This document shows, piece by piece, positions 7,496-17,395 of a DNA stretch of 64,000 bases. Source of the DNA: a virus; IMG/VR virus record IMGVR_UViG_3300010885_032796, positions 1 to 64,000 of that record. The stretch is one strand, 5' to 3'. A program made the position numbers and the translations under genes. Positions within the stretch are counted from its first letter, which is position 1. Every line of letters starts with the position of its first letter. The notes below the pieces were generated by a model. That model had not been told where the DNA came from, searched no databases, and saw only the letters and a list, made by a program, of their open reading frames with translations.

Positions 7496-7884
7496 TGTTC
7501 GTCATCCAGTTCGTCTTTTGTTGTTGCCGTAAATGGTCGACGGTTGCGCCGTGGCGTTATATACATCGGGTGCCGGTACAACACTTGCCGGCCGCGCGTT
7601 GTTTTAATTTCAAGAATATGTTCGTCGCCTATTTGCACGGCACCTCGCGAGCGCTTGCTGTATTGTATTATTGGCACTTTGGTGCTGCCGTTGCTTCGCG
7701 AAACGTACCCAATGTCCCGGCTCGGGCTTTCGTCGTAACCCCAAGCTTGACCAATGTCGGCGCCGCTTGTGCTGCCGTAAATAATTGACACACGCGTTTT
7801 ATCTGCCATGCATTTTTCTAGGACAGCAATAACATCGTCTGCCGTGTTTTCGTTATACGACGTGCCTTGCGCGCTAACTTTCAT
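7492..7884 (-). CDS. Phage protein of the YYG...GxSxG...P type
   Basis: 130 residues. RVSIIYG...GQAWGYDESP...IGYVSRSNGSTKVPI follows the layout of a widespread small phage family (R-x-x-Y-G...W...GxxxRSxGxxKxP, then a Gly-rich loop and IxxIxT). The usual GG before the final strand is RGAVQIG here. The role is unknown. It couples by ATGA overlaps to both neighbours. Confidence 0.6.
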   Translation of the reverse strand: MKVSAQGTSYNENTADDVIAVLEKCMADKTRVSIIYGSTSGADIGQAWGYDESPSRDIGYVSRSNGSTKVPIIQYSKRSRGAVQIGDEHILEIKTTRGRQVLYRHPMYITPRRNRRPFTATTKDELDDEQ

Positions 7885-8543
7885 GGCGTTACTCTTTGAG
7901 GGTTAAACAGCGTTAAACCAATTGAGCGCAGCTTCTCCTTTACTTCCGCCAACGACACGGCTCCAAAATTCTTAGCTGCGAGCAGTTCTTTTTCTGTGTG
8001 TTGCGTCAGCTGGTAGACCGTGTCAATGCCTAGCGCTTTCAGGCATTTACGGCAACGCACTGACAGGTTGAGCACAGCCACTGGCGACGGCGCCGTGATC
8101 TGCGTAACCGTGGCCGGCACTTTTGGCGTAGAAAATGAGTAGTCAAGTGTGGCTGCGTTTACGTGAATCAGAAACTTGGAGTACAGCGCGCAATTTGGCA
8201 ACCAGTCGTCTTGGATCGGCAAGATCTCGACAAAGTCGTCACCACCCACCAGCTCGCGGCTTGTTTGGTACCAGTCATCGAACGCGCCGATATTTGGGTT
8301 ACAGCCTTCGGCGTACGCTACTGGCTGGCCGCGCATTCTGTTGTTGCTCATAAGATAGACGCCGCTATCGTGGACAAACAGAATAGCCGGCCCTGCTGGC
8401 GTTCTATTTGTTATTGGCGGCAAACCCAGCTCGGCTAGTGCTTCATCTGTGTCGTTTTCGTAGCCCATGTCAAACTCAGTTGCGGCTTTAGCGTCTCCAA
8501 TAAGCCGCCGCAAATCTGTTGTGTCAAAACTGCAAACACCCAT
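7881..8543 (-). CDS. Fusion: DUF3085-like N-terminal domain with RNA polymerase alpha C-terminal domain (alphaCTD)
   Basis: 220 residues. The N-terminal part has LFVHDSGVYLMSNN (about 55-68) and YAEGCNP...FDDWYQTSRELVGGDDF (about 77-105), like DUF3085 of plasmids and phages. Residues about 152-213 match the alphaCTD: LSVRCRKCLKALGI then TEKELLAAKNFGAVSLAEVK. Aligned from memory to E. coli alpha, Arg265, Cys269, Lys271, Gly296, Ser299 and Glu302 are kept; Asn268 is Lys and Lys298 is Val. AlphaCTD binds UP-element DNA, sigma region 4 and activators. A detached copy could redirect host RNA polymerase or act as a DNA-binding module. ATG 8543 has AAGGA upstream. Confidence 0.8.
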   Translation of the reverse strand: MGVCSFDTTDLRRLIGDAKAATEFDMGYENDTDEALAELGLPPITNRTPAGPAILFVHDSGVYLMSNNRMRGQPVAYAEGCNPNIGAFDDWYQTSRELVGGDDFVEILPIQDDWLPNCALYSKFLIHVNAATLDYSFSTPKVPATVTQITAPSPVAVLNLSVRCRKCLKALGIDTVYQLTQHTEKELLAAKNFGAVSLAEVKEKLRSIGLTLFNPQRVTP

Positions 8544-11851: not shown

Positions 11852-12160
11852 TCAGTTGTCTAAATACACCGCAAGCGCGGCATTTTCTATTGCTGCGCGT
11901 AATTTAGGCGTTGTCAGGATTAACTGAAGTGCCCATTTTGTCATCAGGACTGAAAAATCACCGCCGCCAAACCAATTAATCGGCAGCAGGTCTTTGATCT
12001 CTGCTGACGCAGGTACAGCCGGGCAACCGTCACCGTCACTGTCTCTCTGCGCTGCCGGCTCGCCCGGATCTATGTCCAGCACCACGGTGATGGGCACTGC
12101 TGTGGGGTACCCCAGCGGGCTTGTGCCGTCTTCGTCCTCAATAACCCACTCTAGTTCCAT
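11852..12160 (-). CDS. Small phage/bacterial hypothetical with DIDPGEPA...P motif
   Basis: 102 residues. VVLDIDPGEPA...GDGCPAVPASAEI fits a common small family with a strand, a Pro-rich acidic loop and a following strand (V.V.Y.P.EPA...P.EP.E.EI). The C-terminal half is helical. No function is known to me. It overlaps the upstream stop by one base and ends a transcription unit before the secreted-protein promoter. Confidence 0.6.
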   Translation of the reverse strand: MELEWVIEDEDGTSPLGYPTAVPITVVLDIDPGEPAAQRDSDGDGCPAVPASAEIKDLLPINWFGGGDFSVLMTKWALQLILTTPKLRAAIENAALAVYLDN

Positions 12161-12429
12161 TACAGCGCTCCAGTGGCTGCGACATGCCCGCTAGCCATCT
12201 TGTTGTTGAGCCACGCCTCTTCAGCTGCCAGTGCTTGGTTGCGTGTATCAAACGGGCCGAGCATTGGCCCGCCAACTGGCGCCAGATCAGCGCACCACTT
12301 TACGGGAAGCGTAGCTGTGGGTTCAACGTGGCTGGCCCGGGCAATACCCAGCGCGCCAAGTTTAGTCAGGTCGATGTCTTCGCTGTACAGGCACTGCGCT
12401 GTGCCATCTGGCCGCACGAACAAGTTCAT
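12160..12429 (-). CDS. Hypothetical of the RASHVEP...ADLxPVGGPxLGPF family
   Basis: 89 residues. The middle ARASHVEPTATLPVKWCADL and APVGGPMLGPF...ALAAEEAWL match closely a small family I recall in many bacteria and phages, annotated only as hypothetical. The fold is probably a short beta sheet with a C-terminal helix. The ATG at 12429 lies eight bases after the upstream stop. Confidence 0.7.
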   Translation of the reverse strand: MNLFVRPDGTAQCLYSEDIDLTKLGALGIARASHVEPTATLPVKWCADLAPVGGPMLGPFDTRNQALAAEEAWLNNKMASGHVAATGAL

Positions 12430-12437
12430 ACTGCCTC

Positions 12438-13508
12438 CTATGGGGTGAGCGCACTGATGCGCCGGGGCCGCGTCAGGTTATTGATATCAAAAGCTTGGCC
12501 TGTGTTACGCTGCGCGCGCACAAGAGTTGCTCGTATATCTTCTTTTGACCTGTTGTAAGTTAGAAACACGTTGTAGTCAGTAATGCGCTCGTCTATAAGC
12601 ATAATCCGGGCGTGCACATCAAGACGCAGATAGGGATTATCAGTTCTCTGCTCTGTAAAATACGTGCTCAGATCAATTTCACTACGCATGATATTTCCGC
12701 TGGCCATGTCATAGCGCCCAGTCAGCGAACTGAGATAGATACGCGTGTCACTCAAAATACGCGTTGCATTGTCTTCGGGGTAGTTGGGCCCCGTGGAAGG
12801 ATACGGCAGTTGATTTTTTACAGTTGACTCGTTGATTACAGCATTGCCGCCAACCAGTACGTGGCCAATAATATCAGCGCGGTCAAGTCTGGCTTTGTCA
12901 AATACCATGGCTGCGCCGCGTACAGTACCGCCAAAGATTACGGGCGTGCCAAAAATTATGCAGTGGCCTGAGAACCTAGCCATAATGCGAGTGTGGGGCG
13001 AAGGGTCATGCGCACGCCGAATGATAGGATTGTCACGAATTACGCAATTGCCTTCAATGTCAGCGTCGACAATGTCGCCGCCAAAAACGCGCGCGTGGTT
13101 TGCCACGACGGAATTCTTGATAATTGTGTTCCCGCCAACACAACTGCGGTCGCGCATAACGCAAGCGCGCACTTTTGCTGAACCGCACACTCGCGCATTA
13201 CCACTCATATGGGTGCCGTTTAACACAGTAGCGTTGTGATAGACAGTGGCAGGATATCCTATAAGACACTCTTCGCTTACTTTTGCTGTGTCTGCAACCC
13301 AGCCGCCGCCGTTTGCGTGCTTGTGCGCCGGCACCCGACCTTCGCCGTCGCCAAAGTCATATCGCGAAATGGGTTTTTTGCGGATTTTTGGTGGCGGTGC
13401 TGGCAGCGCGGGTGCTGGCCCAGCTGGCGTGTCACCAACTGGGCCAGCGGCAAACGCCACAAGCTCTTTGATTTCTGGGATTGGCTCAAACATGTTGCTG
13501 TCTGTCAT
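12438..13508 (-). CDS. Left-handed beta-helix (hexapeptide-like) protein, YdcK type
   Basis: 356 residues. After a Pro-rich start, RYDFGDGEGRVPAHKHANGG (about 49-68) and GWVADTAKVSE lead into a run of short repeats (VYHNATVLNGTHMSGNARVCGSA, in pieces) continuing to about 240. This is the left-handed parallel beta-helix of the YdcK-like proteins, related to acyltransferases but often without their catalytic His. Two breaks with longer loops are visible at about 170 and 235. It may be a structural or sugar-modifying protein; no activity is sure. It couples by ATGA to the coiled-coil gene upstream. Confidence 0.75.
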   Translation of the reverse strand: MTDSNMFEPIPEIKELVAFAAGPVGDTPAGPAPALPAPPPKIRKKPISRYDFGDGEGRVPAHKHANGGGWVADTAKVSEECLIGYPATVYHNATVLNGTHMSGNARVCGSAKVRACVMRDRSCVGGNTIIKNSVVANHARVFGGDIVDADIEGNCVIRDNPIIRRAHDPSPHTRIMARFSGHCIIFGTPVIFGGTVRGAAMVFDKARLDRADIIGHVLVGGNAVINESTVKNQLPYPSTGPNYPEDNATRILSDTRIYLSSLTGRYDMASGNIMRSEIDLSTYFTEQRTDNPYLRLDVHARIMLIDERITDYNVFLTYNRSKEDIRATLVRAQRNTGQAFDINNLTRPRRISALTP

Positions 13509-14470
13509 TCGTGCTCCATCGGTGTGATGCGCCTACGGGGCCTTTCGGTGATTAAGTTATCTAAAGCCGTTTGGACGTCGGCCATTTGCGCCGAGATAGT
13601 CTGGCGCACGCTGTTGTTTTCACGAAGCTCTTTGATGTCCACGCCGGCAACGATGTCGTTTGCCTGCTTGATAAGCCCTTCAAGCTGCGCGTTGGAGCGC
13701 ACGTTCATGTGCTTGAAGTTCTGGTAGAACTCCTTGAAGTTTTCCACGGCAGACGCGCGGAAGATTTTCTTCTGCTCGCCGGGCGCTTCTGTCAGGCGCT
13801 CTTGCAGGTGCGAAACCAGCTCAGCCAGCTTGGCCGCAAAAGCGTCTTCAGCCAGCGCTACAGCCTGCTCAAAGCGCTGTCGGACGCGGCCCTGTTCCTG
13901 CCGATACAGTTCTGGGTTGAACTGCATCAGGTACCGCGGCGGTTCGACGGGCGGATACTCCCACGAGATGCCGAAGACGCCCTCCAGCGTAGCCGGGTAG
14001 TCAACGGGATTGAACAGCGAACCAAGTTTCTCGCGCGCTGCGTTCTTGATAGTCTCGTACTCCAGCTGCAGGTTGGCAGCTGCGGCGTCGAGCTGGACTT
14101 TGAACTCCCGCATCTTGTCTTCAAACTTGGCCACGTCGCTCTGCTTGATCAACCGCACACCTTCTTGCGGGTACGGCAGCGTCATACTGCGCCAGTACGC
14201 TGACGCCTGACTTTTGATTGCCGTCGCCGCACGATAGGCGGGATGCTTTGTGTCAATCAGGCGCTTGGACGCCGTGACCAGCTCTGTCGCTGCGTCGAAC
14301 GTGTCTGCGGCCTGCTTGGTCTGCGCGTCAGACAGTTTGCGCTGCGTACCGAGCCACGAAAACGAGAGCTTTACAGCGCCCGTGCTTTGGCGCATTTCAG
14401 CTGCGCTTTCAATCACGCTATCTGGCAAGTTAGCGGTCTCACTGGAGTCTTGGGTTTCAGTTGCGGACAT
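13505..14470 (-). CDS. Coiled-coil protein linked to the AAA ATPase (DUF3150-like)
   Basis: 321 residues from ATG 14470 (AGGGA upstream). AVKLSFSWLGTQRKLSDAQ (about 32-50) is followed by helical segments with DTKHPAYRAATAIKSQAS, a middle EYPPVEPPRYLMQFNPELY and a long coiled coil to the end. It resembles the DUF3150-type proteins that sit beside AAA ATPases in bacteria, but I am not certain of the family. Directly downstream of the ATPase gene, it could be its substrate or partner. There is no signal peptide. Confidence 0.6.
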   Translation of the reverse strand: MSATETQDSSETANLPDSVIESAAEMRQSTGAVKLSFSWLGTQRKLSDAQTKQAADTFDAATELVTASKRLIDTKHPAYRAATAIKSQASAYWRSMTLPYPQEGVRLIKQSDVAKFEDKMREFKVQLDAAAANLQLEYETIKNAAREKLGSLFNPVDYPATLEGVFGISWEYPPVEPPRYLMQFNPELYRQEQGRVRQRFEQAVALAEDAFAAKLAELVSHLQERLTEAPGEQKKIFRASAVENFKEFYQNFKHMNVRSNAQLEGLIKQANDIVAGVDIKELRENNSVRQTISAQMADVQTALDNLITERPRRRITPMEHE

Positions 14471-14544
14471 ATTTTCCCTGTCTAAAAGAGGTAAAACGAA
14501 AGCGCTATAGCGCAACTACACAGTTGCAACTCTAGCTACCGGCA

Positions 14545-16032
14545 CTAGTTCTGGCCGGGGTTGCTCACAACGCGCCGCCGCGTTGCGCCGTTGTTAGCCG
14601 GCTTTCCAACGCGCGTGTAGATACCGCGAGTATCTGCCGACAGACAGCGACCCTCAGCCCAGTGGCGAAGGTTCTCAATCTGGTCAGCAGACGTCACGGC
14701 AACGGGGACGACATTCTGGGCGGCGTCAAGCAGCGGGATGTCAAGCAGCGCAGCCAAGCGGCAGCACGACTTGATCTCGGCACCAGTCCAGTTAGCGTCG
14801 TCAGGACGGGGCTGTTTCTCGTCCAGACCGAAATGCTGGAGATAGATGCCCCAAATCTGCTGCCGCTGCTCAACACCCGGCAGGTCAACAAAGAACACGC
14901 CGTCGAAGCGCTCAGCGCGCGCAAACGGCGCTGGGAGCTGGCTGGCGTCATTGCAGGTGCCGATGAAGAACACGTCGCTGGTGTGGTCATTAAGCCACGT
15001 CAGCAGCGTGCCAAACAACCGGGCAGACACACCCGAGTCATTCTGACCAGAGCCGCCAACGCCGGCAAGGCCCTTCTCGATCTCGTCGACAAACAGGATG
15101 CACGGGGCCATCGCATCGACCTGCTTGAGCGCACGCCGCATGTTGCCCTCAGACTCGCCCACAAACTTGCCCATCAGGCTGCCAAAGTCCAGCATGACGG
15201 TCGGGCGACCCACCTCGTTACCCAGCGCCTTGGCGAATTGCGACTTACCGCAGCCCGGAGGCGACAGGAGCAGAACGCCCTTGGGCCGGCGATCCGCACT
15301 GGTCTCGTTCTGCCGGCGCATCGACCGCAGACAGAACGACTTCACGTTTTCCAAGCCGCCGAGATTCTCAAAGCTGGCGTCACCGCGATAGAGCGTCATT
15401 GTGCCGCTCTTCTCCAGTGTCTGCGCCTTGATCGTCCAGACGGTGTCGGCCGTGAGCTTCTCGTTGCGCACGAACGACAGGGCAAACGCGTTCTCAGCCT
15501 CGGTGTTGGTTAAACCCCGGGCAGCGTCTACGACGACCTGCACGTCTTCTTTCGTCGGCGCAGCAAAGCCGCTATCCGGCGTGCACAGGCTGTTGCAGAT
15601 CTTGGTCAGCTGCGCCGTGTCGGGCAGATCGTGATGCACGACCGTGAAGAGCTTCTCAATCTCAGGCTGCAGCAGCAGAGTTGGCGAGACGACTACAACG
15701 TGCTGGCTTTCAGACTTGCCAGCTACAAGCTGGTTAGCCAGCGTCTGCAGCACTTTGACGCTGCTGAAAAACCGGTTGTAGTTCTTCAGCACCAAAACCT
15801 TAGTTGGCTTTTCAGTCGGCACCTTGAAGAACTTGAATGCGTCTTCAGGCGCCGGTGCCTTTTCAAGACCAGAATACAGGCCCTTCTCGATGTCCCACGT
15901 ATCAATAGCCCAGTTCTTTTCCTTGGCGATTGCGTACAAAGACGTAATCGCCTCGTCGCACTCCTGCGACTCGACCCAGATACCGGCAAAACCGGCGTGA
16001 ACGAGTTCCTGAAATTCTTTTGCGAACGACAT
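14545..16032 (-). CDS. Ycf46-like AAA+ ATPase
   Basis: 495 residues. The N-terminal half (AGFAGIWVESQECDEAI at about 13-29, then WDIEKGL) is the region typical of Ycf46-like ATPases. The AAA+ core follows: Walker A SPPGCGKS (257-264), Walker B CILFVDEIEK (311-320), sensor 1 FIGTCND, arginine-finger region RAERFD and sensor 2 WTGAEIKSCC. All catalytic residues are present. Such ATPases form hexameric rings that remodel proteins. Together with DUF2997 and DUF1257 encoded just upstream it recreates the cyanobacterial/plastid ycf46-ycf35 neighbourhood. The substrate is unknown. Confidence 0.85.
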   Translation of the reverse strand: MSFAKEFQELVHAGFAGIWVESQECDEAITSLYAIAKEKNWAIDTWDIEKGLYSGLEKAPAPEDAFKFFKVPTEKPTKVLVLKNYNRFFSSVKVLQTLANQLVAGKSESQHVVVVSPTLLLQPEIEKLFTVVHHDLPDTAQLTKICNSLCTPDSGFAAPTKEDVQVVVDAARGLTNTEAENAFALSFVRNEKLTADTVWTIKAQTLEKSGTMTLYRGDASFENLGGLENVKSFCLRSMRRQNETSADRRPKGVLLLSPPGCGKSQFAKALGNEVGRPTVMLDFGSLMGKFVGESEGNMRRALKQVDAMAPCILFVDEIEKGLAGVGGSGQNDSGVSARLFGTLLTWLNDHTSDVFFIGTCNDASQLPAPFARAERFDGVFFVDLPGVEQRQQIWGIYLQHFGLDEKQPRPDDANWTGAEIKSCCRLAALLDIPLLDAAQNVVPVAVTSADQIENLRHWAEGRCLSADTRGIYTRVGKPANNGATRRRVVSNPGQN

Positions 16033-16040
16033 GTGTTGTC

Positions 16041-16238
16041 CTATTGGATTTGATACGTGTTGTTGGTGAGTTGGCGTAACCCGCGGCTACACGGCCAAGT
16101 AACTTTCCCAGAGGGCCAGCGCACCATAACGCGCTGGCCCCTGCATCCGTCAAGTTGGCATTTCTTCGTGCTGCCTGTGGCTACACCGCGAAGCTGCTCG
16201 TCATCACGTGCAACAACTACGGAGTCTTTGTAGCCCAT
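16041..16238 (-). CDS. Small conserved protein with DGC...WPSGKVTWPC
   Basis: 65 residues. CQLDGCRGQRVMVRWPSGKV then TWPCSRGL (about 27-53) is a compact strand-rich segment with three Cys, possibly a small zinc-binding or OB-like domain; I recall similar small proteins in bacteria and phages. It lies between the ATPase and the DUF2997 gene, so it may belong to the same complex. The ribosome site is weak; ATG 16238 is the only good start. Confidence 0.6.
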   Translation of the reverse strand: MGYKDSVVVARDDEQLRGVATGSTKKCQLDGCRGQRVMVRWPSGKVTWPCSRGLRQLTNNTYQIQ

Positions 16239-16243
16239 GGGAG

Positions 16244-16432
16244 TTAGTTGCTTTCTTCGAGAGTCTGCTCGTTGGAGGCGTAATACTCAGGCGTAAACGA
16301 CTCGCCGGCCTTGGCGCCGAGCGCAGCCTCAAGTGCTCGCGTGGCGTCTTGGCAAGAGCTGCCGGTGAATCCAGTGGTCTCGATTTTGGTCTCACCCTTG
16401 GGGGAAACGGTGACGTGAATCATCTTGCTCAT
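16244..16432 (-). CDS. DUF2997 protein
   Basis: 62 residues. MSKMIHVTVSPKGETKIET then TGFTGSSCQDATRALEAALG matches DUF2997: a short beta hairpin, a G-(F/Y)-x-G-xx-C turn and an amphipathic helix ending in LG. In bacteria and plastids this domain is encoded next to a DUF1257/Ycf35 protein and a Ycf46 ATPase, as here. The function is unknown; the Cys may be redox- or metal-active. Confidence 0.8.
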   Translation of the reverse strand: MSKMIHVTVSPKGETKIETTGFTGSSCQDATRALEAALGAKAGESFTPEYYASNEQTLEESN

Positions 16433-16800
16433 TAGTAGCTCTCCACAGTGATGTTAAGTTTGATCGAACCGTCTTCCAGAAGCTCCTCGCCCACGGTATA
16501 CCCGTTGCTGCGCGCCTCGCTTGTGGCCTTCTCGATGGTGTATGCCTGCAGGAACTTATCTAGCTCGACCTGCTTGCCCCAGCGGCCGTTGTAGTTGTCG
16601 AACGCTACCTCGCCAGTTTCGGTGTTGCAGACAACGGGGTACTGCCAGTTTGGGAGCATTACGCCCACGCCAGTAGCTTTCTGGCCGCTGAACAAGTCAA
16701 ACGTGCCAGTTGTTGGCTCTGGGAGGTTGAGCCGCGCGCAGGCTGCTGTAATAGCAGCTTCGTCGGTCACCTGTGTTTTGATCTGAACGATGTGCGACAT
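16432..16800 (-). CDS. DUF1257 (Ycf35-like) protein
   Basis: 122 residues. The start MSHIVQIKTQVTDEAAITAA is typical of DUF1257/Ycf35 (MSHF..I.T...D...L..A). FSGQKATGVGVMLPNWQYPV, a GEVAFDNYNGRWG turn and the C-terminal VESY-type end also fit. It overlaps the DUF2997 start by one base, so the two proteins are probably made together. The role is unknown, but the gene order with the Ycf46-like ATPase is conserved in other genomes. Confidence 0.8.
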   Translation of the reverse strand: MSHIVQIKTQVTDEAAITAACARLNLPEPTTGTFDLFSGQKATGVGVMLPNWQYPVVCNTETGEVAFDNYNGRWGKQVELDKFLQAYTIEKATSEARSNGYTVGEELLEDGSIKLNITVESY

Positions 16801-16802
16801 GG

Positions 16803-17108
16803 TTATGTGGCCCTTTTGTCTTTGAGGATTTCTTGTAGCGCATATTGAATAGCATGCGCAAAAATGTCAGCTGTTATTTCAGGAATACCTGCAAACCGCG
16901 CCAGAACTTTTTCAGCCGTGTCTCGGTCAAACTCGTCTAACAATGTTTTGTTGTGCCGGAAATAGTTGAGTCTGTACTCTGCAATTTCCAACATTGTGAT
17001 TGGCATTGGAATACTGATGAACCGTTTGTGCTTTTCTTGCACGGCTGCCAAGTCAGCTAACGCGAGCGTAATGTGCTCAGTTATTTCAGCAAGTTCTTTC
17101 CCTATCAT
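16803..17108 (-). CDS. Hypothetical helical protein, 101 residues
   Basis: ATG 17108 has AGGT at five bases and overlaps the preceding gene by four bases. It is mostly helical (LAEITEHITLALADLAAV, IEKVLARF-like segment AEKVLARFAGIPEITADI), with no Cys and no membrane segment. No family is recognised. It starts the run that contains DUF1257 and DUF2997. Confidence 0.55.
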   Translation of the reverse strand: MIGKELAEITEHITLALADLAAVQEKHKRFISIPMPITMLEIAEYRLNYFRHNKTLLDEFDRDTAEKVLARFAGIPEITADIFAHAIQYALQEILKDKRAT

Positions 17109-17395
17109 TGGCGACCTGCAATCTCTGCAGTGGTCTCGACCCAGACAGTGGCACCGCAGTTTAGCGGCTTGTTGGGCGAGTAGACTACGCGTGACGGGCC
17201 AAAAATCTCTACGGACTCGAAGCGGTAGGGCTTGCCTCGCCACTGCACTGTGACGACGGGTTCGCTAGCGTTGGTTTTTTTGTTGCTTCGGATAATGTGA
17301 GTGTTTACGTGGACACGTTTGAGCGTGCCGGCTGGCATGGTCATAGGGCATAACGCCCCGGTAGCCACGCTGCATTTTGCTGCAGCGGCAGGCAT
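17105..17395 (-). CDS. Phage hypothetical with GPSRVVYSPxKPLxCGAxVWxET motif
   Basis: 96 residues from ATG 17395 (AAGGAG at five bases). The RVHVNTHIIRSNKK start and the EIFGPSRVVYSPNKPLNCGA motif then VWVETTAEI match a small beta-rich phage family of unknown function. It heads the module and is preceded by a 134-base leader with three hairpins. Confidence 0.65.
   Translation of the reverse strand: MPAAAAKCSVATGALCPMTMPAGTLKRVHVNTHIIRSNKKTNASEPVVTVQWRGKPYRFESVEIFGPSRVVYSPNKPLNCGATVWVETTAEIAGRQ

Follow-up and report, generated by a model that had tools for sequence, protein, structure and literature searches.

A minus-strand gene set in a 64,000-nucleotide stretch of phage DNA (the window) is best read as encoding a protein remodeller of the phage's own, in which a two-tier AAA+ ATPase of the Ycf46 type would work with a DUF1257-DUF2997 adaptor; we give this reading a probability of about 55%. 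Sequence comparisons strongly support a set that works as one system, through reordered synteny, a natural gene fusion, phyletic profiles and selection. The set appears to be an old, selected phage part, and some carriers grow on Pseudomonas aeruginosa, Rhizobium, Rhodobacter capsulatus and Aeromonas; cultured phages that carry it therefore offer a simple genetic system for learning its function. Cyanobacteria and plastids share conserved Ycf46 and Ycf35 proteins, and DUF1257 and DUF2997 occur in many bacteria and archaea, but we know of no settled function for Ycf46, Ycf35, DUF1257 or DUF2997. A literature search found no paper discussing a phage Ycf46/DUF1257/DUF2997 system.

In the proposed machine, the ATPase would most likely form a hexameric ring of two tiers: the first AAA ring, dead, would serve in docking, and the second, live, would pull on protein with its K-F-V-G pore loop, by threading. 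DUF1257 and DUF2997 are predicted to pair as one TBP-like adaptor that may select or present the substrate, and the phage and mobile-element versions could have a helical DUF3150 protein and an 89-aa protein as added adaptors or regulators. Three features of the ATPase argue for ATP-driven protein remodelling, namely its motor, its pore loop and its predicted tandem-AAA fold. The substrate, at a guess from gene neighbours, may be a part of DNA replication or recombination complexes.

Gene order and the ATPase

The window comes from a partial IMG/VR record of 120,049 bases that carries a terminase and has several close relatives of 203-205 kb. Transcription on the minus strand runs through DUF1257, DUF2997, the small WPSGKVTWPC protein, the ATPase, the coiled-coil protein, a beta-helix-like protein and the 89-aa protein (Table 1). 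All five ORFs that the original prediction had described as one tight run exist, closely packed on the minus strand, while its module range of 13505-17395 needs redrawing: 16803-17395 holds other phage genes outside the module, and the 89-aa partner lies beyond the range. The WPSGKVTWPC protein, which had been counted as a part of the module, does not belong to the core, because a relative occurs in just one of the 63 related viral loci (L024). The ORF of the coiled-coil gene as listed reaches upstream to a TTG at 14515, and the 3' end of this gene is overlapped by the gene for the beta-helix-like protein. Conservation of the latter extends to 37 close viral loci and to none of the distant ones; it is taken as accessory, its membership of the module being uncertain. 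Elsewhere in the window (7881-8543, minus strand), a DUF3085 domain is joined to an RNA polymerase alpha C-terminal domain (PF03118, 2.2e-17). A Volactin-family actin homologue (PF25216, 1.4e-62) is encoded at G000 100677-101687 (L066:16677-17687, minus strand) and is also present in four of the five 203-205 kb relatives searched.

Table 1. Genes of the module and adjoining genes in the window
Feature	Position	Strand	Basis
DUF1257 (Ycf35-like) protein, 122 aa	16432-16800	-	relatives match PF06868
DUF2997 protein, 62 aa, family's invariant Cys present	16244-16432	-	PF11211 match
small WPSGKVTWPC protein, 65 aa, not core	16041-16238	-	no Pfam or PHROG match
Ycf46-type AAA+ ATPase, putatively two-tier, 495 aa	14545-16032	-	PF00004, phrog_8638, profile-profile
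DUF3150-family helical/coiled-coil protein, 321 aa	13505-14470	-	relatives match PF11348
left-handed beta-helix-like protein, 356 aa, accessory	12438-13508	-	hexapeptide/LbH-type matches
conserved 89-aa partner, no Pfam family	12160-12429	-	relatives beside module elsewhere

The ATPase matches the Pfam AAA family (PF00004, E 8.2e-28) and, across 463 residues, phrog_8638 (E 5.9e-83). An alignment of the phage ATPase, used to scan genomes, returned 80 cellular Ycf46-type loci. In profile-profile comparison the phage and cellular Ycf46 families match end to end (467 columns, E 2e-132), and their N-domains alone match over 210 columns (E 6e-53, probability 100%), which bears out the earlier assignment to the Ycf46 type, N-terminal part included. 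The motor motifs comprise Walker A SPPGCGKS (257), the pore loop KFVGESE (289), Walker B ILFVDEIEKG (312), sensor 1 (358) and the paired arginine fingers ARAERFD (369), spanning residues 257-377; all are intact as judged from the sequence. Besides full-length homology, cellular Ycf46 (slr0374 type) shares with the phage protein the DEIEKG Walker B signature and the DUF1257/DUF2997 partners. However, its pore loop is mostly SLVGQSE, with Leu replacing the aromatic residue in most cellular Ycf46 proteins and also in many distant phages (a point that weighs against the remodeller reading), and the phage ATPase sits in a separate viral clade and has DUF3150 and the 89-aa protein as extra partners.

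The predicted structure of the ATPase (pLDDT 84.5) matches the tandem-AAA proteins p97, Rix7 and NVL over 504-579 alignment columns that cover both domains. These proteins have two AAA modules, so that a degenerate first AAA module is the likeliest reading of the N-domain, though the similarity of its profile to an AAA core is weak (70.7%, E 4e-5). Two AAA modules, motor motifs and a pore loop would be common to the phage ATPase and Cdc48/p97, Rix7 and NVL, from which it differs in the apparent degeneration of the first module, in having no p97-type N-domain, and in its partners. The SgiA/IetA antitoxins belong to the same SpoVK/Ycf46/Vps4 superfamily, as described for SGI1 (PMC10954446), and the likeness of the ATPase to anti-phage ATPase models is of a general AAA kind. 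It is nevertheless highly improbable that the set is a toxin-antitoxin or exclusion system of this type, in which an AAA+ ATPase restrains a subtilisin-like protease, given that the partners here are DUF proteins and that no Peptidase_S8 was found in the partial record of the window or in five 203-205 kb relatives.

Two departures from the usual gene structure were seen in related phages. In six of them (L041:6939-7721; L038, L042, L043, L050 and L051), the ATPase gene is interrupted within Walker B, where a group I intron separates the Asp codon from the Glu codon; the intron matches RF00028 of Rfam (68.6 bits in L041) and contains an ORF for an HNH-like endonuclease. In four others (L059:2021-3619, L060, L063:5638-7236 and L057:2762-4276), Walker B and the following helix precede Walker A, with motifs at 295 and 339 and sensor 1 at 398 in L059, and at 273, 315 and 374 in L057. 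All motifs are intact and each gene has a DUF3150 neighbour; these proteins probably have a segment-permuted AAA+ core.

The DUF1257-DUF2997 pair, DUF3150 and the 89-aa protein

The identity of the DUF2997 protein stands on a direct match to PF11211 (3.9e-17; 62.3 bits against a gathering cut-off of 24.1), and one Cys is conserved in 100% of 72 sequences. The window DUF1257 protein, encoded next to it, falls below the cut-off of PF06868 when searched alone (E 0.044; 14.5 against 22.2 bits), although 34 of the 41 members of the family derived from it match PF06868 (best 1.3e-27). An iterated profile that starts from the window protein picks up cellular DUF1257 proteins adjoining Ycf46, and the family alignment has a conserved MSH N-terminus and one invariant Tyr. 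The protein thus belongs to PF06868 through intermediate sequences, in agreement with the DUF1257/Ycf35-like name first given to it. The window DUF1257 and DUF2997 proteins, compared directly by tblastn, gave no matches among cultured phages, and profiles were needed.

A Clostridium gene is a natural DUF1257-DUF2997 fusion, and its predicted structure (pLDDT 92.1, pTM 0.85) suggests that the two form a single compact unit. For modelling purposes only, same-frame gene pairs were read through the intervening stop in the joint DUF1257/DUF2997 alignment; three cultured-phage rows were left out whole from the alignment for structure prediction. A fold search with the model of the pair returned weak TBP-like and RnlA matches (TM about 0.25), too weak for a function to be drawn from them. 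DUF1257 is tied to DUF2997 as one likely adaptor, and two further partners, DUF3150 and the 89-aa protein, can be looked for. Apparent DUF1257 fusions in L095 and L155 (a 1435-aa frame) were rejected as overlapping reading frames. Two DUF1257 copies per module occur in L062 (7572-7955 and 8454-8840) and L095 (4793-5164 and 7527-7919), hinting that DUF1257 may be hetero-oligomeric.

The coiled-coil protein noted earlier after the ATPase is present and can probably be placed in the DUF3150 family through its relatives, 13 of 25 of which match PF11348 (best 3.9e-25); the window protein alone has no match to PF11348. In nearly all of the close phage loci, and in many of the distant ones, its gene stands beside the ATPase gene, and it is the most constant ATPase neighbour among distant uncultured phages. 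Other elements carry DUF3150 alongside MoxR and VWA genes. Both points could be taken to mean that a Ycf46-type ATPase has been swapped into a MoxR-DUF3150-VWA system, with DUF3150 as the working part and DUF1257/DUF2997 in place of VWA. This is unlikely: no VWA_2 domain was found in 13 phage records, DUF3150 is missing from the chromosomal module of the genomes checked, and among the five cultured-phage lineages with the DUF pair a DUF3150 neighbour was detected only in that of Tunturi_3. Searches of cultured phages for DUF3150 returned no further record. The Tunturi_3 gene (Tunturiibacter phage, L153:11285-12241), named an HNH endonuclease, matches the DUF3150-family profile at 1.2e-51, and the annotation is probably wrong.

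The 89-aa family has invariant Gly, Arg, Trp and Glu residues. Its members adjoin the module in phages with changed gene order (L047, L049 and L052), in cellular mobile-element-like loci (L082, L087, L092, L097 and L127) and in the cultured phages HJ05, L338C, SM1 and Tunturi_3.

Association across phages

In the close viral loci (L002-L046), DUF1257 and DUF2997 accompany the ATPase in 44 of 45 cases, the remaining locus being cut off, and DUF3150 comes next wherever the contig extends far enough. Taken alone, this association could reflect common descent. However, the set recurs in altered order in divergent phages, both uncultured and cultured, as the proposed co-occurrence search of viral genomes established. 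The order is ATPase-DUF1257-DUF2997-89 aa in L047, L049 and L052, ATPase-DUF3150-DUF1257-DUF2997 in L055, and DUF3150-ATPase-DUF1257-DUF2997-DUF1257 in L062. The cultured RcTiptonus, L338C, SM1, HJ05 and Tunturi_3, mostly unannotated in this region, keep the set in changed order; the cultured carriers are phages of Pseudomonas, Rhizobium, Rhodobacter, Aeromonas and Tunturiibacter. The DUF1257 of HJ05 as query found 17 records of cultured phages, with Pseudomonas, Rhizobium and Aeromonas as hosts, and the DUF2997 of RcTiptonus four Rhodobacter records. In RHph_I4, L338C, SM1/PaMx31, RcTiptonus and HJ05, the same three families adjoin one another as in the window, but in another gene order, with an ATPase of another clade, with no DUF3150 detected, and mostly annotated as hypothetical; the Rhizobium phage RHph_I4 already has both DUF names in its annotation. 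Partial sets also occur. No partners were detectable near the Ycf46-like ATPase of Smooch, Summit, vB_VhaS-a and Javan368, and L054, L056, L057, L058 and L059 have DUF3150 with no clear DUF1257 or DUF2997; the lack of the DUF pair in cases such as L054, L058, Smooch and Summit weighs against the remodeller reading.

Purifying selection acts on all parts (median dN/dS 0.14-0.25), with values of 0.136 for the ATPase, 0.153 for the DUF3150-family protein, 0.18 for DUF2997 and 0.187 for DUF1257. A defence or counter-defence device that takes apart host immune or phage-inhibiting complexes would agree with the patchy spread in phages and mobile elements and with the several copies in one Verrucomicrobiales genome, but is very unlikely, as the set is kept in nearly all members of the phage group under purifying selection and not in fast turnover.

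As to the substrate of the proposed remodeller, in three cultured phages the genes for DnaB helicase and polymerase lie downstream of the module, and proximity to these genes, together with that to clamp and ligase genes in mobile elements, leads to the guess that it acts on replication complexes. In the phage of the window itself, none of the module's neighbours was recognised as a replication gene.

Origin and cellular modules

In the ATPase tree, the window protein falls in an all-viral clade (14 rows, support 100/100), and the cultured phages form a second viral clade with the same support. Because of the first clade, the window ATPase is not a recent host capture, and the two viral clades together make the phage copy an old one among viruses. 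There was probably more than one virus-cell transfer overall, the exact number being blurred by long branches. Replacement of a host machine, one of the two roles first put forward, is disfavoured by the clade, by the unrelated hosts of the carriers and by the extra partners, while the other, a remodelling system of the phage's own, fits better.

A host-derived auxiliary set, copied from the host Ycf46 complex to take over the same host process (e.g. redox or carbon metabolism), would account for the protein families shared by phage and host. In Synechocystis, loss of Ycf46 reduces the activity of the carbonic anhydrase EcaB, as found by Jiang (2015), cited in PMC7496141, and the operon responds to many stresses, its function being given as unknown (PMC7496141). 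In the cyanobacterial cluster, DUF2997 and ycf35 are joined by the ferredoxin gene fed7 (PMC4284462), which can be set beside the invariant Cys of DUF2997. Such an origin is quite unlikely, since the window clade is long separated, the cultured carriers infect hosts as unrelated as Pseudomonas, Rhizobium and Aeromonas, and DUF3150 and the 89-aa protein are additions of the phage version, DUF3150 being absent from those module genomes of Paenibacillus, Chloroflexi and cyanobacteria that were checked. A photosynthesis-related reading was rejected in view of the hosts and the phylogeny.

On chromosomes (Paenibacillus, Chloroflexi, Methanoregula and others), the module consists of ATPase, DUF1257 and DUF2997. 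Across 150 Paenibacillales genomes, profiled with the centre left out, the ATPase occurs in 11, which include all five DUF2997 carriers (hypergeometric 8e-7) and all three DUF1257 carriers (3e-4), in a test that ignores the relatedness of the genomes. The neighbourhood had been described as conserved in cyanobacteria, plastids and some other bacteria; around the ATPase itself it is not typical of cyanobacteria, where most Ycf46 loci fetched have neither DUF1257 nor DUF2997 within 6 kb. The version of the module found in phages and mobile elements is set apart by DUF3150 and the 89-aa protein: cellular loci that have both (Verrucomicrobia, Desulfomonile and Lentisphaerae) are mobile-element-like, and a sliding clamp and a DNA ligase adjoin the module in such loci, as verified with Pfam in L092. 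One Verrucomicrobiales genome has three complete DUF3150 copies, on its three DUF1257-carrying contigs. It is tentatively possible, though doubtful, that this mobile-element class is a distinct one, in which a single phage-ancient complex of ATPase, DUF1257-DUF2997 adaptor, DUF3150 and 89-aa protein remodels replication or virion-assembly proteins of the phage, with cellular and plastid Ycf46/Ycf35 as its chromosomal cousins.

Chromosomal modules are often flanked by Hsp70-like, HEAT or NrdG-like radical-SAM genes, and the Hsp70 and HEAT neighbours would fit a chaperone-like role. NrdG-like radical-SAM (Fer4_12) genes stand beside the cellular DUF1257/DUF2997 genes at L083:8119-8700 and L120:3319-3957; together with fed7 in cyanobacteria, such neighbours hint at an iron-sulphur or redox link.
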